DNA of 35,766 nucleotides, from NCBI RefSeq assembly GCF_024170505.1, contig NZ_JALJYG010000017.1, forward strand, positions 1 through 35,766. Reading direction: 5' to 3'. Below the pieces are notes generated by a model that was not told the DNA's origin, ran no database searches, and worked only from the letters and a program-made list of their open reading frames with translations. Shown here piece by piece: positions 16,862 to 23,926 of the stretch. The stretch comes from Methanocalculus alkaliphilus. GTDB lineage: Archaea; Halobacteriota; Methanomicrobia; Methanomicrobiales; Methanocorpusculaceae. A program made the position numbers and the translations under genes. Every line of letters starts with the position of its first letter. The stretch's first letter is position 1.

Positions 16862-17413
16862 ATGAATCTTATCCTTCCATGCGCATATCCTATGATAATG
16901 TTCTCCCGTCGGATCTTTGAGACTGAATTTGCTGAGGCGCTCGAAGAGGAGCTGAAGAGGAGGGATATGACGGTCCGGGAGCTCTCCCAGAAGACCGGCA
17001 TCCCCCCGGCAACACTCTATAAGATCGCATCAGGTGAGCGGGACCCCCGCCTCTCGACGGTACGGCGGATCGTTGCCACGCTTGAGCCGCAGGAGGGCCG
17101 CTTCATCGCAGTCATCGCCGCAAAGTTTCTCCTCGACGAGATCGAAGGGTCCGAGGTCTCCGTTGAGGGGGAGCCTGTCCGGCTGAAAGGGTATGCGGCA
17201 AACTCCATCGACGAGTGCATCACCGCGGCTGTTGAGGCGAGGAAGGAAGGTGCCGCCGGTGTCATCTGTGCCCCGGTCCTCGCCTCGATCATCGAGCGGG
17301 TCGTTGACATCCCGGTGGCGATACTCAAGCCCGAGCCGAAGACGGTCATCGATGCCGCAGGGATCATCGCACGGCGGATCGAGCGGTTCAGGAAGGGCGG
17401 ATCCCCGCCCTGA
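16862..17413 (+). CDS. XRE-type HTH regulator with a C-terminal sensor-like domain
   Basis: The protein has 183 residues. A helix-turn-helix of the Cro/cI type spans about 35-75 (MTVRELSQKTGIPPATLYKI, ASGERDPRLSTVRRI). The C-terminal 95 residues (SIDECITAAVEARKEGAAG, VICAPVLASIIERVVDIPV) look like a small alpha/beta ligand-binding domain, distantly reminiscent of the N-terminal sensor of PrpR; this is inference. ATG codons at 16892 and 16898 are alternative starts, and none has a ribosome-binding site. The gene converges on trpA and overlaps it by 26 bp, with a 7-bp hairpin in the overlap. Its placement makes it a candidate regulator of the trp operon, but no binding evidence exists. Confidence 0.82.
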   Translation: MNLILPCAYPMIMFSRRIFETEFAEALEEELKRRDMTVRELSQKTGIPPATLYKIASGERDPRLSTVRRIVATLEPQEGRFIAVIAAKFLLDEIEGSEVSVEGEPVRLKGYAANSIDECITAAVEARKEGAAGVICAPVLASIIERVVDIPVAILKPEPKTVIDAAGIIARRIERFRKGGSPP

Positions 17414-18167
17414 TAGCCCTGACCACCGCCGCGACATCCTCCCCCGGATCGCCGGATGATGCCTCGATTGCGGCGGTGATCGCCGAGCCGGCGATGACGG
17501 CATCCGCACCCGCAGAGACAGCCTCTTCAGCCGTTCCGGCGGATCCAATCCCAAATCCGACGGCAACAGGGAGGTCCGTTACCGCCTTCAACGCTTCTAT
17601 CCGGGGACAGAGATCGGTCGGGAGATGGTCCCGCCGCCCGGTGACACCGGGGGCCGAGACGAGATAGAGGAACCCCTTTCCGAGAGTGCCAAACTCCTTC
17701 ATCCTCATCGTGGGCGTCGATGGGGCGATGATGAAGATGGGATCAAGCCTCTCCTGCGCGATGAGGGATCGCCCCTCCTCAGGCGGCATATCAACGACCA
17801 GAATACCATCGGCGCCCGCCTCTGCTGCATCCAGCAGGAAACGATCCTCACCTCTGGCAATGACCGGGTTTGCATAGGTCATCAGGATGATCGGCACCTC
17901 GCTCTCTCTTCTGACAGCCTCGATGAGCGAGAAGACCGTCCCGATGCCATTGCCTGACCGGATCGCCCGTTCATGACCCCGCCGGATGACGGGACCGTCT
18001 GCGACCGGGTTTGTGAACGGAACGATCAGCTCGATCATATCGGCCCCCGCTGTGATCATCGCACGGATCACCGCAAGCGATGCCTCAGGGGTCGGGTCCC
18101 CGGCAATGGTGCAGGCAATGAGGAGGGGCTGGCTCCGGCGGCCAAAGGCGTCCGTTATCCGGGTCAT
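17388..18167 (-). CDS. trpA: Tryptophan synthase alpha chain
   Basis: The protein has 259 residues, a TIM barrel that splits indole-3-glycerol phosphate into indole and glyceraldehyde 3-phosphate and passes indole to TrpB. The catalytic Glu lies in [18 protein letters not shown], the catalytic Asp region in [12 protein letters not shown], and the phosphate-binding loop in [14 protein letters not shown]. In the first motif VPFTNP replaces the more common PFSDP, a change seen in archaea. It is the last gene of the operon and overlaps trpB by 4 nt (ATGA). Its 3' end overlaps the convergent regulator gene by 26 bp. Confidence 0.97.
17394..17411. repeat. Perfect hairpin in the trpA/regulator convergent overlap
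   Basis: AGGGCGG (17394-17400) and CCGCCCT (17405-17411) pair perfectly over the 4-nt loop ATCC. The element codes for the C-termini of both convergent proteins. No T run follows on either side, so it may block RNA degradation or act as a bidirectional pause rather than an intrinsic terminator. Confidence 0.5.
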
Positions 18168-19312
18168 GCCCCACCCCCGGTGATCGCCTGGAGGTCCTTA
18201 TCCCCACGTCCTGAGAGGGTGACGGCGATGAGGCTCTCCTCCGGCATCTCCTCAGCGAGGCGGAGGGCGGCGGCGACCGCATGGGCCGACTCCAGTGCCG
18301 GGATAATCCCTTCTCTCCGTGAGAGGAGACGGAAGGCCGCCACCGCCTCTGCATCGGTGACGGTGAGATACTCTGCCCGGCCGATGTCGCGGAGGAGGGC
18401 ATGCTCCGGGCCGACACCCGGATAGTCAAGTCCGGCCGAGATGCTGTGGGTCGGACTGATCCTCCCCTCCTCATCCTGGAGGAGGGAGGTGTAGGCACCA
18501 TGAAGGACACCCGGGCTGCCGCAGGTGAGGGAAGCACCATGATCACCGGGATTCAGTCCTCTGCCACCGGCTTCGGCACCGATCAGCCGGACCGGATCAT
18601 CGAGGAGGGGGAAGAATGTCCCGATGGCATTTGATCCGCCCCCGACACAGGCGACGACGGCATCAGGCAGCCTCCCCTCCTCTGCAATGGACTGGGATCG
18701 CAGCTCCTCCCCGATCACCGACTGGAGATCACGGACCATCCGTGGGAAGGGGTCGGGGCCGACACAGGATCCAATCAGGTAATGCGAGTCGTCGGCGGTC
18801 GCGGCCCAGCTCCGGAGCGCCTCATCGACGGCATCAGAGAGGGTCTTTGATCCCGTCGTCACCGGGGTGACGGTTGCCCCGAGAAGCTCCATCCGGGAGA
18901 CATTCGGGGCCTGGCGCTGCATATCGACCGCTCCCATGAAGACCTCCACCTCAAGGCCGAGGACCGCACCCGCCATCGCCGTCGCCACACCGTGCTGGCC
19001 GGCCCCGGTCTCGGCGATCAGGCGGGTTTTCCCACTCTTCTCTGCGAGGAGCGCCTGGCCAAGCGTATTGTTGATCTTATGGGCACCCCCATGAAGGAGA
19101 TCCTCTCTCTTGAGGCAGATGGTCGAATTCGTCCCAAGGTTTCTGCACCGGTAGAGCGGGGTTGCCCGGCCGGCATAGCGTCTGAGGAGAGAACCGAGTT
19201 CTTCCTGTGCCTTGGGATCCTCTCTGAAGGCATCATAGGCATCGGCAAGATCACGGAGCGGCTCCATCAGGATCTCAGGGGCATACCGGCCTCCGTATGG
19301 CCCAAACCTCAT
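18164..19312 (-). CDS. trpB: Tryptophan synthase beta chain (TrpB1 type)
   Basis: The protein has 382 residues from the ATG at 19312, chosen because it makes the ATGA overlap with trpF that is the rule in this operon; an ATG at 19327 would add five residues. TrpB condenses indole with serine using PLP. The PLP lysine lies in [11 protein letters not shown] (Lys79), GAGQHGVA is the substrate-carboxylate loop and VGGGSNAIG binds PLP phosphate. The length and these motifs fit the TrpB1 class that pairs with TrpA, consistent with the adjacent trpA. Confidence 0.97.
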
Positions 19313-19878
19313 ATGCCACCCCGACATGCCCGAAGAAATGCCTCCATCAGGATCGGATCCTTCAGGCCCGGCCGCCGTTCGACACCACTTGAGACATCCA
19401 GCCCGGCCGGATGAAGTGAAGAGACCACAGCGGGTACCGAAGCCGGGGTGAGACCTCCGGCGAGGATCACCGGGAGATCGGTCCGCCGGATCGCCGCCTC
19501 CGCATGATCGATATCCATCCGGATACCCCGGCCACGTGACGCATCGAGGAGGAGGCGATCCGATCCCTCGGGGGGATCTGCGATCCCGTCCCAGTCGGTG
19601 ATGGTGATGAACCGGTCCGGAACAGAGAGGGGATGATAGATCTGAACGGCATCCGGGGAGAGGCTGCAGATCATCCGGAGATCCGCCGGGGACCGGCTCG
19701 TCGTGACACAGACCGTCTCGACCCTCCCTGACGCTGCCTCCATGATCGCCTCTGCACGGCGCCGGGATACTGAACGGGGGGAGTCTGAAGAGAGGATGAT
19801 CCCGATCGCATCAGCCCCTGCATCAATCGCAGCGAGGGCATCTGCGGGGCGGGTGATCCCGCATATTTTTACATACAT
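19309..19878 (-). CDS. trpF: Phosphoribosylanthranilate isomerase
   Basis: The protein has 189 residues, a single TIM barrel that performs the Amadori rearrangement of phosphoribosylanthranilate. The general base Cys6 is in VKICGIT and the general acid Asp161 in [17 protein letters not shown] carries phosphate-binding residues. It is slightly shorter than bacterial enzymes of about 200 residues. The usual VQLHG segment is replaced by VQIYHP. It overlaps trpC by 10 nt and trpB by 4 nt. Confidence 0.96.
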
Positions 19879-20609
19879 GCAAACGCCTCTGTTGCTCTCC
19901 TTGGATCATCTGATGATGCAATTGCGGTTCCGATGAGGACCGCGCCGCACCTGCCACGGTACCTTCCCAGATCCTCCGGTGTCATGATACCGCTCATGAC
20001 AACAGCCATCCGCCCGTATGATCGGATCAGGGGGGCAAGCCGGAGAGCACGGTCAGGATCGATCTGAAGCGTCCGGAGATCCCGGTTATTGATCCCGATG
20101 ATCCGGGCACCGGTCGCCAGTGCCGCCTCTGCTTCTGCCTCATCTGCGATCTCAACGACCGGCTCAAGGCCGCAGGCAAACGAGTGATCAACGAATGCCG
20201 GGAGATCATCTCCAAGCACCATCGCTATCAGAAGGACGGCATCAGCACCGATGGAACGGGTTTCCGCAATCTGTGCAGGATGGACGAGGATATCTTTCCT
20301 CAGAACCGGGAGATCGGTATGCCGCTTCACCTCCCTGATGAAGGAGGGGTCGCCCCCAAAGACCGTCGGTTCGGTCAGGACCGAGATGGCGGCCGCACCA
20401 CCGGCGGCCATCTCCCGTGCAAGGAGGCCGGGGGGGAGCGAGGCACCGGTCGGCCCGGACGGGGAGGCATACTTCACCTCAGCGATCACCGCAGGATCAG
20501 AAGCAGTGAGTGCATCATAGAAGGGTCGCACCGGATCATGGGTATCGGGGACGCTCTCCGGAAGGAGCTCCCCTCTCCTGAGAGAGGCGGCGATGAGGGC
20601 CTCTATCAT
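19869..20609 (-). CDS. trpC: Indole-3-glycerol phosphate synthase
   Basis: The protein has 246 residues. It closes the ring of carboxyphenylamino-deoxyribulose phosphate to indole-3-glycerol phosphate. The catalytic Lys is in AEVKYASPS, a second Lys in VLRKDILV, and catalytic Glu and Asn in EPVVEI and GINNRDL; SGI near the C-terminus binds phosphate. AEVKYASPS differs from the commoner AEIKRASPSKG but keeps the key Lys. It is not fused to TrpF, unlike in many enterobacteria. It overlaps trpD by 4 nt. Confidence 0.96.
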   Translation of the reverse strand: MIEALIAASLRRGELLPESVPDTHDPVRPFYDALTASDPAVIAEVKYASPSGPTGASLPPGLLAREMAAGGAAAISVLTEPTVFGGDPSFIREVKRHTDLPVLRKDILVHPAQIAETRSIGADAVLLIAMVLGDDLPAFVDHSFACGLEPVVEIADEAEAEAALATGARIIGINNRDLRTLQIDPDRALRLAPLIRSYGRMAVVMSGIMTPEDLGRYRGRCGAVLIGTAIASSDDPRRATEAFACM

Positions 20610-21625
20610 GAGAGATCACCCCTGGAGAAGCCGGCAAGGAGGCGGAGGGATTCGGCCGCCCTGCCATCATCGATGGAGGCTTCCGCGATGGAGAGGGCGG
20701 CAGGGAAGGTCTCTGCCCCGCCGCCGGCGATGATCGCCCCTGCCGCATTCAGGAGGACAATGTCACGGCAGGGTCCCTCCTCTCCGTTGAGGAGAGCCCG
20801 GACAACTCCTGCACTTTCGGCGGGATTCTCCACACGAAGCGATGTAACAGGAGCGTCGGAGAGCCCGAGATCCGATGCCAGAAGCGTATATTCGGAGATT
20901 GTTCCGTCCTTTAGCTCAAGGATCCGGTTCTCTCCATGGAGTGCAAGTTCATCGAGCCCTGCTCCGGAAACGACGAGTGCCCGCCGGACCCCGAGCGATC
21001 GAAGTGCTTCAGCCATCGGGTGAAGAAGGGCGGGATCGGCAACCCCGAGCAGTCGGTTCACCGGGCCTGCGGGGTGCGAGAGGGGTCCGAGGATATTGAA
21101 GATCGTCCGGAACCCGAGTTCGGACCGTATCGAGGCAAGGCTCCTCATCACCGGATGATACTGGCCTGCCGGAAGGAACGCAATCCCGGCTACACGAAGA
21201 GCCTCGCCAACCTTCCCTGAAGGCAGGCCGGGTGCCACCCCGAGTTCTGCAAGGAGATCAGCTGAGCCGGATCTGCTGGTGACCGCCCGGTTTCCGTGTT
21301 TCAGGACAGGGATGCCTGCGCCTGCCGTGACGAAGGCGGCGGCAGTACTGATGTTGAAGGTCATCGCATGGTCGCCGCCTGTCCCGCAGGTATCAACGGC
21401 CTTCTCCGCACCCTGGAGTGAGAGCGGGCGGGCATGGGAGAGAAGGTATGATGCACAGAGAGAGAGATCCTCACCGGTGAGCGTATGGTGACGGAGTGCC
21501 GTCAGGAATGCACCCGCCTGGGCAGGGGTTGCACACCCCGAGATGAGATCATCAAAGGCAGACCCTATCGCACCGGGTGGGAGCGGGGTCCCCTCGATGA
21601 TGGACCGGCAGATGGACTGAATCAT
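20606..21625 (-). CDS. trpD: Anthranilate phosphoribosyltransferase
   Basis: The protein has 339 residues. It transfers the phosphoribosyl group of PRPP to anthranilate. The PRPP loop DTCGTGGD is followed by TFNIST, and KHGNRAVTSRSGSADLL is the second signature. FNILGPLSHPA and a DELAL stretch (SGAGLDELALHGE) complete the family pattern. The length is usual, and it is not fused to TrpG. It overlaps its neighbours by 4 nt on both sides, pointing to coupled translation. Confidence 0.97.
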   Translation of the reverse strand: MIQSICRSIIEGTPLPPGAIGSAFDDLISGCATPAQAGAFLTALRHHTLTGEDLSLCASYLLSHARPLSLQGAEKAVDTCGTGGDHAMTFNISTAAAFVTAGAGIPVLKHGNRAVTSRSGSADLLAELGVAPGLPSGKVGEALRVAGIAFLPAGQYHPVMRSLASIRSELGFRTIFNILGPLSHPAGPVNRLLGVADPALLHPMAEALRSLGVRRALVVSGAGLDELALHGENRILELKDGTISEYTLLASDLGLSDAPVTSLRVENPAESAGVVRALLNGEEGPCRDIVLLNAAGAIIAGGGAETFPAALSIAEASIDDGRAAESLRLLAGFSRGDLS

Positions 21626-22203
21626 GCGACCACCCCCTCCTTCAGAAACGATTCGACAAGACCGGGGCCGTCCCTGGTCAGGAAGCTCTCGGGATGGAAC
21701 TGTACCCCTTCAATCGGGTATCGACGGTGGCGGATGCCCATCGGGAGATCATCGCCGACCGATCTGGCGGTGATGACCAGATCGTCCGGAAGCCTGGTCC
21801 GGTCAACCACAAGGGAGTGGTACCGGACGGCAGGGAAGGGATTTGGGAGCCCGGTATATATCCCGGCTCCATCATGGCGGATGGATGTCACCTCCCCATG
21901 GACCGGGCGGGGTGCATGGATGATATAGCCTCCTTCGGCGGTGCAGATCGCCTGATGGCCAAGGCAGACACCGAGCGTCGGGGTATTGTGAGAGAGGGTG
22001 TTGAGGACCTCACCCAGAAGGGGAAAGTCTCCCGGCCTCCCCGGACCAGGGGAGAGGATGATCCGATCGGGATCCGCCTCGGTTACCCGGTCAAGGGGTT
22101 GATCCGCCGGGATGACAATCGGCTCTGCCCCAAGACCCCCGATGATCTGGACGAGGTTATAGCTGAAACTGTCGAAACAGTCGATGATGACGACCTTCAT
22201 CAT
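21622..22203 (-). CDS. trpG: Anthranilate synthase glutamine amidotransferase subunit
   Basis: The protein has 193 residues, a class I glutaminase that supplies ammonia to TrpE. The nucleophile is Cys80 in GVCLGHQ, with His170 and Glu172 in FHPES; ILSPGPGRPGD forms the oxyanion region. In archaea the same subunit may also serve aminodeoxychorismate synthase, but the operon setting points to tryptophan. It starts inside the trpE stop (ATGA). Confidence 0.96.
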   Translation of the reverse strand: MMKVVIIDCFDSFSYNLVQIIGGLGAEPIVIPADQPLDRVTEADPDRIILSPGPGRPGDFPLLGEVLNTLSHNTPTLGVCLGHQAICTAEGGYIIHAPRPVHGEVTSIRHDGAGIYTGLPNPFPAVRYHSLVVDRTRLPDDLVITARSVGDDLPMGIRHRRYPIEGVQFHPESFLTRDGPGLVESFLKEGVVA

Positions 22204-23426
22204 CCAGCCCTCCCGGCAGCCGCGATGGCACGGAGGCAGGCTTCCGCCTTGATCGCCGTCTCATCGTACTCTCTGTCGGGATCGGATCCGGCAACGATAC
22301 CGGCACCAGCCTGAACCTCTGCCATCCCGTTCCTGATCACAACCGTCCGGATGGTGATCGCAAAGTCGAGCGATCCGACTCCTGCGATCCCGACTGCCCC
22401 GGCATAGATGCCACGGGAAGCACCCTCCTCACCTGCGATCAGCTCCATTGCACGCCTCTTCGGGGCACCGGTCACGGTTCCTGCCGGAAAACAGGATCTC
22501 AGTGCATCATAGCCGTCATAGCCTGCCGCCGACTCGGCAGATACCGTCGTGACGAGATGCATCACCCGCGAATACCGTGCCACCTCCGCATACGGAGAGA
22601 CACGGACCGAACCATACCGGGCAACACGGCCGATATCGTTCCGTGCGAGATCGACGAGCATCAGGTGTTCGGACCGCTCCTTCGGATCTGCCAGGAGTTC
22701 CCCGGCAAGAGCGGCATCATGGAGAGGATCACGACCACGCGGCCTTGTCCCTGCGATAGGCACAGTCGTGAGCGCAGGGCCGCGTGCCGAGACGAGCATC
22801 TCCGGGCTCTCCCCTGCCACCTGTTCATCCCCATAATCAAGGAAATATCCATAGCAGGACGGGTTCTTCGACCGGAGATGCGCATAGATGGACAACGGAT
22901 CCTTCTCATACGGAAGATTAAATTTGCGGGAGAGGACTGCCTGGTAACAGTCACCATCCCGTATCCGTGCTTTGAGCCTCCGGACACCGTCGGTGAAGAT
23001 GGATCGATCCATCGTCGTGGCAGTGGCTCCGGGAATGGGGGCTTCTGAGACCATCCCCATTGAGAGATCCGCATCCTCGAGGGAGTGAGCCATCCTGCGG
23101 AGACGAACATCAGCCTCATCGCCGGGACGCCTCGACGAGAGGGTGATCTCGTCCGGAGTAATGACTGCACTCTCACGGGGAATGAGGAATCGGCCTCCCC
23201 CCTCATATCCAAGATACCCGGCAGGGGAGAATGGAGGATGAGAGGCGATGGAGCGGAGGGTATCGAACGGATCACCGGGGAGATCGATGATCTCAGAGGA
23301 GAAACCGAGGGTCACCGGGAGATCCGGGAACTCAAGAATATAACCAGGCCCGTCAGCGAGGGCCGCATAGACCGCAACCGGATCTGCACCCGGGATCGGG
23401 AGAGAGAGGACGGTTGCGGAGGTCAC
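22200..23426 (-). CDS. trpE: Anthranilate synthase component I
   Basis: The protein has 408 residues, shorter than bacterial TrpE of about 500 but similar to compact archaeal forms. It makes anthranilate from chorismate with ammonia from TrpG. The chorismate-binding half shows VPIAGTRPRG, EHLMLVDLARNDIGRV and CFPAGTVTGAPKRRAM. The N-terminal part keeps GYLGYEGGGRF, but the tryptophan feedback motif LLES is not clearly present; YILEF is at the corresponding place, so feedback control may be altered. The start is a GTG at 23426, the first in-frame start after the promoter. It is the first gene of the trp operon. Confidence 0.95.
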   Translation of the reverse strand: MTSATVLSLPIPGADPVAVYAALADGPGYILEFPDLPVTLGFSSEIIDLPGDPFDTLRSIASHPPFSPAGYLGYEGGGRFLIPRESAVITPDEITLSSRRPGDEADVRLRRMAHSLEDADLSMGMVSEAPIPGATATTMDRSIFTDGVRRLKARIRDGDCYQAVLSRKFNLPYEKDPLSIYAHLRSKNPSCYGYFLDYGDEQVAGESPEMLVSARGPALTTVPIAGTRPRGRDPLHDAALAGELLADPKERSEHLMLVDLARNDIGRVARYGSVRVSPYAEVARYSRVMHLVTTVSAESAAGYDGYDALRSCFPAGTVTGAPKRRAMELIAGEEGASRGIYAGAVGIAGVGSLDFAITIRTVVIRNGMAEVQAGAGIVAGSDPDREYDETAIKAEACLRAIAAAGRAG

Positions 23427-23483
23427 CAGTCCGATGGCATCACCGGAATATCAGAGCTGCTCTGCATACGCTATCATGTGTTT

Positions 23484-23519
23484 TGTACATATTTATACAT
23501 TACCATACAGATATGTACA
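23484..23519 (-). promoter_or_regulatory. trpE promoter: TATA box flanked by TGTACA (TRP-box-like) repeats
   Basis: On the minus strand the TATA box reads TATAAATA (plus-strand 23490-23497), about 65 nt upstream of the trpE start. TGTACA occurs at 23484-23489, touching the TATA box on its downstream side, and at 23514-23519 on the upstream side. The nine-base arms TGTACATAT and ATATGTACA form a perfect inverted repeat spanning 36 bp. TGTACA is the core of the TRP box bound by the repressor TrpY in Methanothermobacter. A TrpY-like repressor acting here is inferred by analogy. Confidence 0.6.
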
Positions 23520-23535
23520 TCAATATACAGGAGAG

Positions 23536-23543
23536 TTTTATAT
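23536..23543 (+). promoter_or_regulatory. TATA box of the GerW-family gene
   Basis: ttttatat lies with its centre about 27 nt before the ATG at 23567, so transcription should begin almost at the start codon and the message would be leaderless. It is back to back with the trpE promoter, and the TGTACA dyad lies only 17 bp upstream. Confidence 0.5.
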
Positions 23544-23566: not shown

Positions 23567-23926
23567 ATGACTGAAAAGAATGTCCTGGAGGGTGTACTTG
23601 ACCATCTTCAGACGATGGTCTCATCAAACATCCTCCTTTCAGATCCGATCGAATCAGGGAACCGATCCATCTTTACCATCTCCTCGGTCGGGTTCGGCTT
23701 TGGCGGCGGTGAAGGGAGATCGAACGACGGTGGAGCGGGGGCAGCCGGGGCCGGCGCAGGTGTCACCCCGATTGCAGTGATGGTTATTCATAAGGATATT
23801 CCCGGTGCCGAGGGTGTCCAGATCTTCACACTCGGGAAGAAGGGAGAGGTTGCACAGGCGATCTCAACGGCTGCAGAATCCCTTCCATCCGTGATCGATG
23901 CGCTGCGGAGTCCAAAGAAAGAGTAA
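23567..23926 (+). CDS. GerW (YtfJ) family protein
   Basis: The protein has 119 residues. It begins MTEKNVLEGVLDHLQTMVSS and continues with SVGFGFGGGEG, a Gly/Ala-rich loop and VTPIAVMVIHKD, the pattern of the GerW/YtfJ family. In Bacillus YtfJ is a sporulation protein needed for spore germination; archaea do not sporulate, so the archaeal role must differ and is unknown. The start at 23567 is chosen from the TATA box spacing; the frame is open upstream to 23414. DUF2953 follows directly, the same pairing as ytfJ-ytfI in Bacillus. No membrane segment is present. Confidence 0.88.
   Translation: MTEKNVLEGVLDHLQTMVSSNILLSDPIESGNRSIFTISSVGFGFGGGEGRSNDGGAGAAGAGAGVTPIAVMVIHKDIPGAEGVQIFTLGKKGEVAQAISTAAESLPSVIDALRSPKKE

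Follow-up and report, generated by a model that had tools for sequence, protein, structure and literature searches.

Xie and Reeve reportedly found in 2005 that TrpY of Methanothermobacter thermautotrophicus acts by excluding TBP from the TATA box. Tryptophan regulation in archaea has been described in detail for only two lineages, those of TrpY and Tar, and the TrpY homologue TK1227 shows that such a homologue need not control trp (PMC6737238). In the TrpY/TRP-box system of M. thermautotrophicus, TGTACA boxes lie over the TATA box of the trpE promoter and the full trp operon is controlled; Tar (TK0271) of the Thermococcales, an activator whose gene belongs to the aro operon, exerts transcriptional control over another archaeal trp operon (PMC6737238). 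Bacterial trp attenuation employs a short leader ORF with Trp codons (trpL) just 5' of trpE.

The locus described here shares features with each of these systems and adds a third archaeal case, an order-wide cis-regulon defined by sequence. Like the TrpY system, it has TGTACA boxes over the TATA box at the trpE promoter of a full trp operon. By contrast with that system, however, the boxes belong to tandem 10-bp direct repeats that contain the TATA box, a Spore_YtfJ gene occupies the place of a divergent trpY, trpB2 and possibly a transporter are also marked, and a leader ORF has a Trp codon that overlaps the start of trpE. Whereas Tar is an activator, the operator here covers the TATA box, which points to repression; unlike trpL, the leader has one Trp codon, which overlaps the trpE start codon. 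As we discuss below, we consider it reasonably probable that two layers of control act at this one promoter, repression by operator occlusion and translational sensing of charged tRNA-Trp.

The repeat array at the trpE promoter

The window (the whole 35,766-nucleotide stretch analysed) carries a trpEGDCFBA operon on its minus strand, with a Spore_YtfJ-family gene as the divergent neighbour (Table 1), in a Methanocalculus genome close to that of M. chunghsingensis (96% identity for the HTH protein considered below). The original prediction placed TGTACA elements at 23484–23489 and 23514–23519, on either side of the minus-strand TATA box TATAAATA, and described the nine-base arms TGTACATAT (23484–23492) and ATATGTACA (23511–23519) as perfect inverted copies; both statements are correct. 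Six of the nine arm bases are bound to match, TGTACA being palindromic, and TGTACA is over-represented in the window (7 occurrences versus 2.2 expected, a count reached by 0 of 100 shuffles), so that single boxes mean little. Read along the minus strand from 23529 to 23484, the same region consists of TGTATATTGA, TGTACATATC, TGTATGGTAA, TGTATAAATA, and TGTACA, which are five direct units at an exact pitch of 10 bp, placed between the TATA boxes of the trp operon and of the divergent gene.

First, no run of five units arose in simulations, in which the best runs were 2 units in 300 whole windows and 3 units in 20,000 intergenic regions. Second, no pitch other than 10 bp yielded a five-unit run, except for the 20-bp harmonic. 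Third, at least three consecutive units occurred in the 2.09-Mb genome only in the trpE array and at one unrelated place. We set aside this second three-unit TGTA site (L001, C9:63366), which lies close to a tRNA-like sequence and the remains of a ribbon-helix-helix-like gene; its TGTACG/TGTA array (G000:C9:63366–63389), also of 10-bp pitch, is perhaps the autoregulatory operator of an integrated element.

In the first of the proposed layers, a DNA-binding protein would sit on this helically phased TGTA(Y)A row, with one unit per turn of the helix and the TATA box included, and the bound protein would block TBP when tryptophan is plentiful. Repression is the predicted outcome because the operator overlaps the TATA box; both the protein and its ligand are putative.

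Table 1. Trp operon, promoter elements, and neighbouring genes in window coordinates.
Feature	Position	Strand	Remarks
HTH_3 regulator with C-terminal alpha/beta domain	16898..17413	+	convergent with trpA; weak repressor candidate
trpA	17388..18167	-	
trpB	18164..19327	-	
trpF	19309..19878	-	
trpC	19869..20609	-	
trpD	20606..21625	-	
trpG	21622..22203	-	
trpE (Chorismate_bind)	22200..23429	-	start CTG 23429 by genus conservation, or GTG 23426
Leader ORF, MQSSSDIPVMPSDW and stop	23423..23467	-	ATG 30 nt 3' of first T of TATA; probably leaderless
Leader Trp codon TGG	23426..23428	-	overlaps trpE start region (CTG 23429–23427); TGG in 58/58
GGTGAT, Shine-Dalgarno-like sequence of trpE	23439..23444	-	within leader ORF; from sequence
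Trp operon TATA box TATAAATA	23490..23497	-	within fourth operator unit; TGTATAWATA in relatives
Operator, five TGTA(Y)A direct units, 10-bp pitch	23484..23529	-	from sequence, simulations, and order-wide conservation
Operator unit 1	23529–23520	-	
Operator unit 2	23519–23510	-	
Operator unit 3	23509–23500	-	
Operator unit 4	23499–23490	-	
Operator unit 5	23489–23484	-	
TATA-like TTTTATAT of divergent gene	23536..23543	+	from sequence
Spore_YtfJ-family gene	23567..23926	+	divergent from trpE; not a regulator

Trp codons are scarce in the trp operon of the window (17388–23426), with 3 in 2,021 residues and none in trpE, trpG, trpD, trpC, or trpA. Methanocalculus TrpE (408 residues in the window) is about 100 residues shorter than in the rest of the order, where TrpE open frames are near 500–560 residues, and the missing portion is N-terminal.

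Conservation of the array and genes marked by it

We compared the trpE upstream region of the window with those of 70 further loci from 33 genera, giving 71 trp loci that come from related genomes, so counts among them are not counts of independent events. The boxes and the direct repeat were conserved in this alignment, but the dyad, whose conservation the original prediction had proposed as a test, was not. Direct-repeat units were kept in the nearest relative (four units) and in more distant ones (two to four units), whereas the dyad was lost even in the nearest relative (L007; L076 is identical in sequence), and the inverted repeat outside TGTACA was not retained in the trpE upstream regions of relatives. 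Judged by these alignments, what is conserved is an array of direct repeats at 10-bp pitch rather than a dyad. Operons that begin with trpE have TACAAYAATGTATAWATATGTACAA in common where the TATA box lies, and to either side of it bases are conserved at 10-bp intervals; among 47 aligned operators, the 10-bp peaks were C 0.60, C 0.94, T 0.91 (the TATA unit), C 0.98, and C 0.51. Operons that begin with trpB2 have a similar but weaker box over the trpB2 TATA.

When 150 Methanomicrobiales genomes were searched with the order consensus TACAAYAATGTATAWATATGTACAA, allowing up to 3 mismatches, 78 matches were found, compared to 0 for the reversed pattern used as a control. When the matches were assigned from their positions or from the gene read downstream of them, 44 fell at trpE, 29 at trpB2, 3 at an AMP-ligase gene, and 1 at a gene for a TrpP-like transporter, and one was left unassigned. 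The boxes might instead be an ordinary promoter element of the order, as their overlap with the TATA box and its flanks could suggest, but the location of 73 of the 78 genome-wide matches at trpE and trpB2, with none in the control, largely refutes this explanation and leaves it barely credible. As a cis-element, the array is well supported, by its sequence and distribution, as a tryptophan-specific operator over the TATA box. Because it marks trpB2 and, in some genomes, the TrpP-like transporter as well, the genes under it make up a tryptophan regulon. The proposal that TRP-box control extends to this lineage thus stands insofar as it concerns the operator, because throughout the order an operator of the TGTACA type is retained over the TATA box of trpE and marks tryptophan genes; the name TrpY cannot be given to the regulator. 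Elsewhere in the phylum, 20 trpE neighbourhoods outside the order showed neither such an array nor such a leader.

The TrpP-like membrane protein with an upstream array (L176, G100:C4) is from genus g6, which is Methanoculleus-like, and its only Pfam match, to PF17099 (TrpP), had an E value of 0.0021 and fell below the cut-off. The promoters of trpB2 and the ligase gene in Methanocalculus carry 10-bp TACA repeats, which at trpB2 are downstream of the TATA box. The ligase, an AMP-forming acyl-CoA ligase encoded two genes 3' of trpB2, has the array in four Methanocalculus genomes (L204, 2028–3602; L307; L309; L310), and one might guess that it serves salvage of aryl acids such as indoleacetate.

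Candidate regulators of the trp operon

That no TrpY-like gene adjoins the operon, as originally noted, holds for the divergent neighbour but overlooked the HTH gene convergent with trpA. No named TrpY of Methanothermobacter turned up in the genome scan, which gave 80 loci, and no dedicated gene tracking the trp operon emerged. Bacterial TrpR is similar only by analogy, in that its operator function depends on Trp; the PF01371 profile, which matches in E. coli and B. subtilis, had no match among 61 genomes from the order, and we rejected TrpR as the regulator.

Among the nearest neighbours of trp operons, the HTH_3 gene adjacent to trpA encodes the sole recurrent regulator, and its product could be the array-binding tryptophan repressor. 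It is the commonest gene flanking trp operons (11 of 71 loci), is always convergent with trpA, and has a predicted fold (pTM 0.55) that combines an HTH with a small alpha/beta domain resembling, in weak matches, the sensor halves of LacI and PrpR. We nonetheless doubt this assignment. The protein is present at about one copy per genome throughout the order, even in near-complete Methanocorpusculum genomes without trpE, its gene is unlinked to trpE in most other lineages of the phylum, and no array is found at the promoter of the gene itself. Moreover, the protein starts with MFSRRIF and contains no Trp, whereas TrpY homologues carry W2, which we take to be their only tryptophan.

The near-complete Methanocorpusculum genomes that keep the HTH_3 protein without trpE are G018, G042, G060, G065, G070, G074, G090, and G094; in G024, G036, G048, and G078, also Methanocorpusculum, a full operon occurs together with the array. 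This contrast within one genus is a natural experiment through which the regulator of the array might be found. In L302, from a different family of the phylum, trpE has a divergent neighbour, 76–712 bases upstream of the trpE frame, whose product carries a C-terminal ACT domain and is a possible amino-acid-sensing regulator there. We rejected it as the regulator of the order, in which neither a protein search nor PF24367 found a relative.

A leader reading frame at the trpE start codon

The peptide motif MP[VSLR][DE]W is encoded just ahead of trpE in 58 of the 71 trp loci (26 genera, six families), as ATG CCN NNG GA[A/C] TGG in a frame that differs from that of trpE. In these leader-bearing loci, trpE starts with [A/C]TG followed by G, and the leader Trp codon overlaps that start. 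TGG was found in 58 of 58 motif loci, even though the search pattern did not demand it. The motif was absent from 13 loci that retain trpE, including those of genus g13, which has perfect operators; the leader is therefore not essential, and leader and operator are separable.

Could the motif be nothing beyond an initiation context for trpE, consisting of a Shine-Dalgarno sequence and a spacer, so that the array would be a Trp-repressor site and MPxEW never a regulatory peptide? Several observations fit this explanation: GGTGAT suits the archaeal anti-Shine-Dalgarno sequence, some conserved leader bases double as the Shine-Dalgarno region of trpE, the 13 loci just mentioned do without the motif, and in trpB2-first operons, where the leader ATG overlaps the trpB2 stop, the motif directly follows that stop and could act as an initiation context. 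Other evidence makes the explanation rather unlikely, although it deserves some weight. First, the base 3' of the trpE start was G in 58 of 58 loci, compared to 8 of 134 at trpG, trpD, trpC, trpF, trpB, and trpA, yet codon 2 of trpE varies among D, E, V, G, and A. Second, where trpE leads the operon, the leader ATG is usually 27–37 nt past the first T of the TATA box, at about the expected transcript start, and ATGs between TATA+24 and the motif are mostly in the leader frame (43, versus 11 in the two other frames). Third, MP[VLR][DE]W is kept in f3 even though the upstream Shine-Dalgarno-like bases differ. A leader with a constrained Trp codon is thus well supported by sequence comparison, and the distance of its ATG from the TATA box suggests that the leader ORF of trpE-first operons is probably translated from a leaderless transcript.

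At the overlap, trpE starts with AUG in 37 loci and with CUG in 21, and never with GUG or UUG; in the window, GTG directly follows the CTG, and either may be the start. The next canonical codon in the trpE frame of the CUG loci L080, L100, L120, and L127 is at codons 39 to 99, and in several CUG loci it is well inside or past the conserved N-domain. Given these conserved CUG starts, many of these genomes probably have trpE annotated incorrectly.

The same geometry could mean that ribosomes translating the leader produce TrpE by a –1 frameshift at a hungry Trp codon, which would join VMPVE or VMPSD to the trpE frame and permit synthesis during starvation. The leader frame does enter trpE exactly at the Trp codon, and several genomes have no ATG, GTG, or TTG in the trpE frame before the conserved N-domain. 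Nevertheless, a slippery heptamer is absent, a plain AUG stands at this position in many genomes, and a single genus includes both kinds of start (AUG in L119 and CUG in L120, one each), all of which makes frameshifting very improbable.

We return to translational sensing as the second layer. The transcript would begin at or near the ATG of the short leader ORF, whose one Trp codon, part of the conserved motif, overlaps the start of trpE. With charged tRNA-Trp plentiful, leader ribosomes would pass over this start region and compete with initiation there; with charged tRNA-Trp scarce, they would pause at the Trp codon or leave the RNA there, and a small subunit retained by GGTGAT within the leader could restart at the overlapping AUG or CUG of trpE. 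Geometry and conservation suggest translation of the leader, the pausing, and the direction of this effect. Any control by the leader would be translational, because there is no interval for terminator hairpins before trpE. Our tentative view, held at slightly under even odds, is that Methanomicrobiales sense charged tRNA-Trp by stalling of ribosomes at the leader Trp codon, which would decide the synthesis of a TrpE that often starts at CUG. Next to the tandem codons of bacterial attenuators, a single Trp codon would make a weak sensor. Within the literature searched, this is apparently the first amino-acid-codon leader proposed for Archaea and, if the proposal is true, it would parallel bacterial attenuation by purely translational means, atop a helically phased operator.

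No terminator or antiterminator hairpins were found between leader and trpE, where there is no room for them. The one hairpin seen in the window covers the Shine-Dalgarno region: in this genome, the RNA of positions 23430–23447 may fold as UCCGGUG-AUGC-CAUCGGA, which would mask the Shine-Dalgarno bases of trpE.
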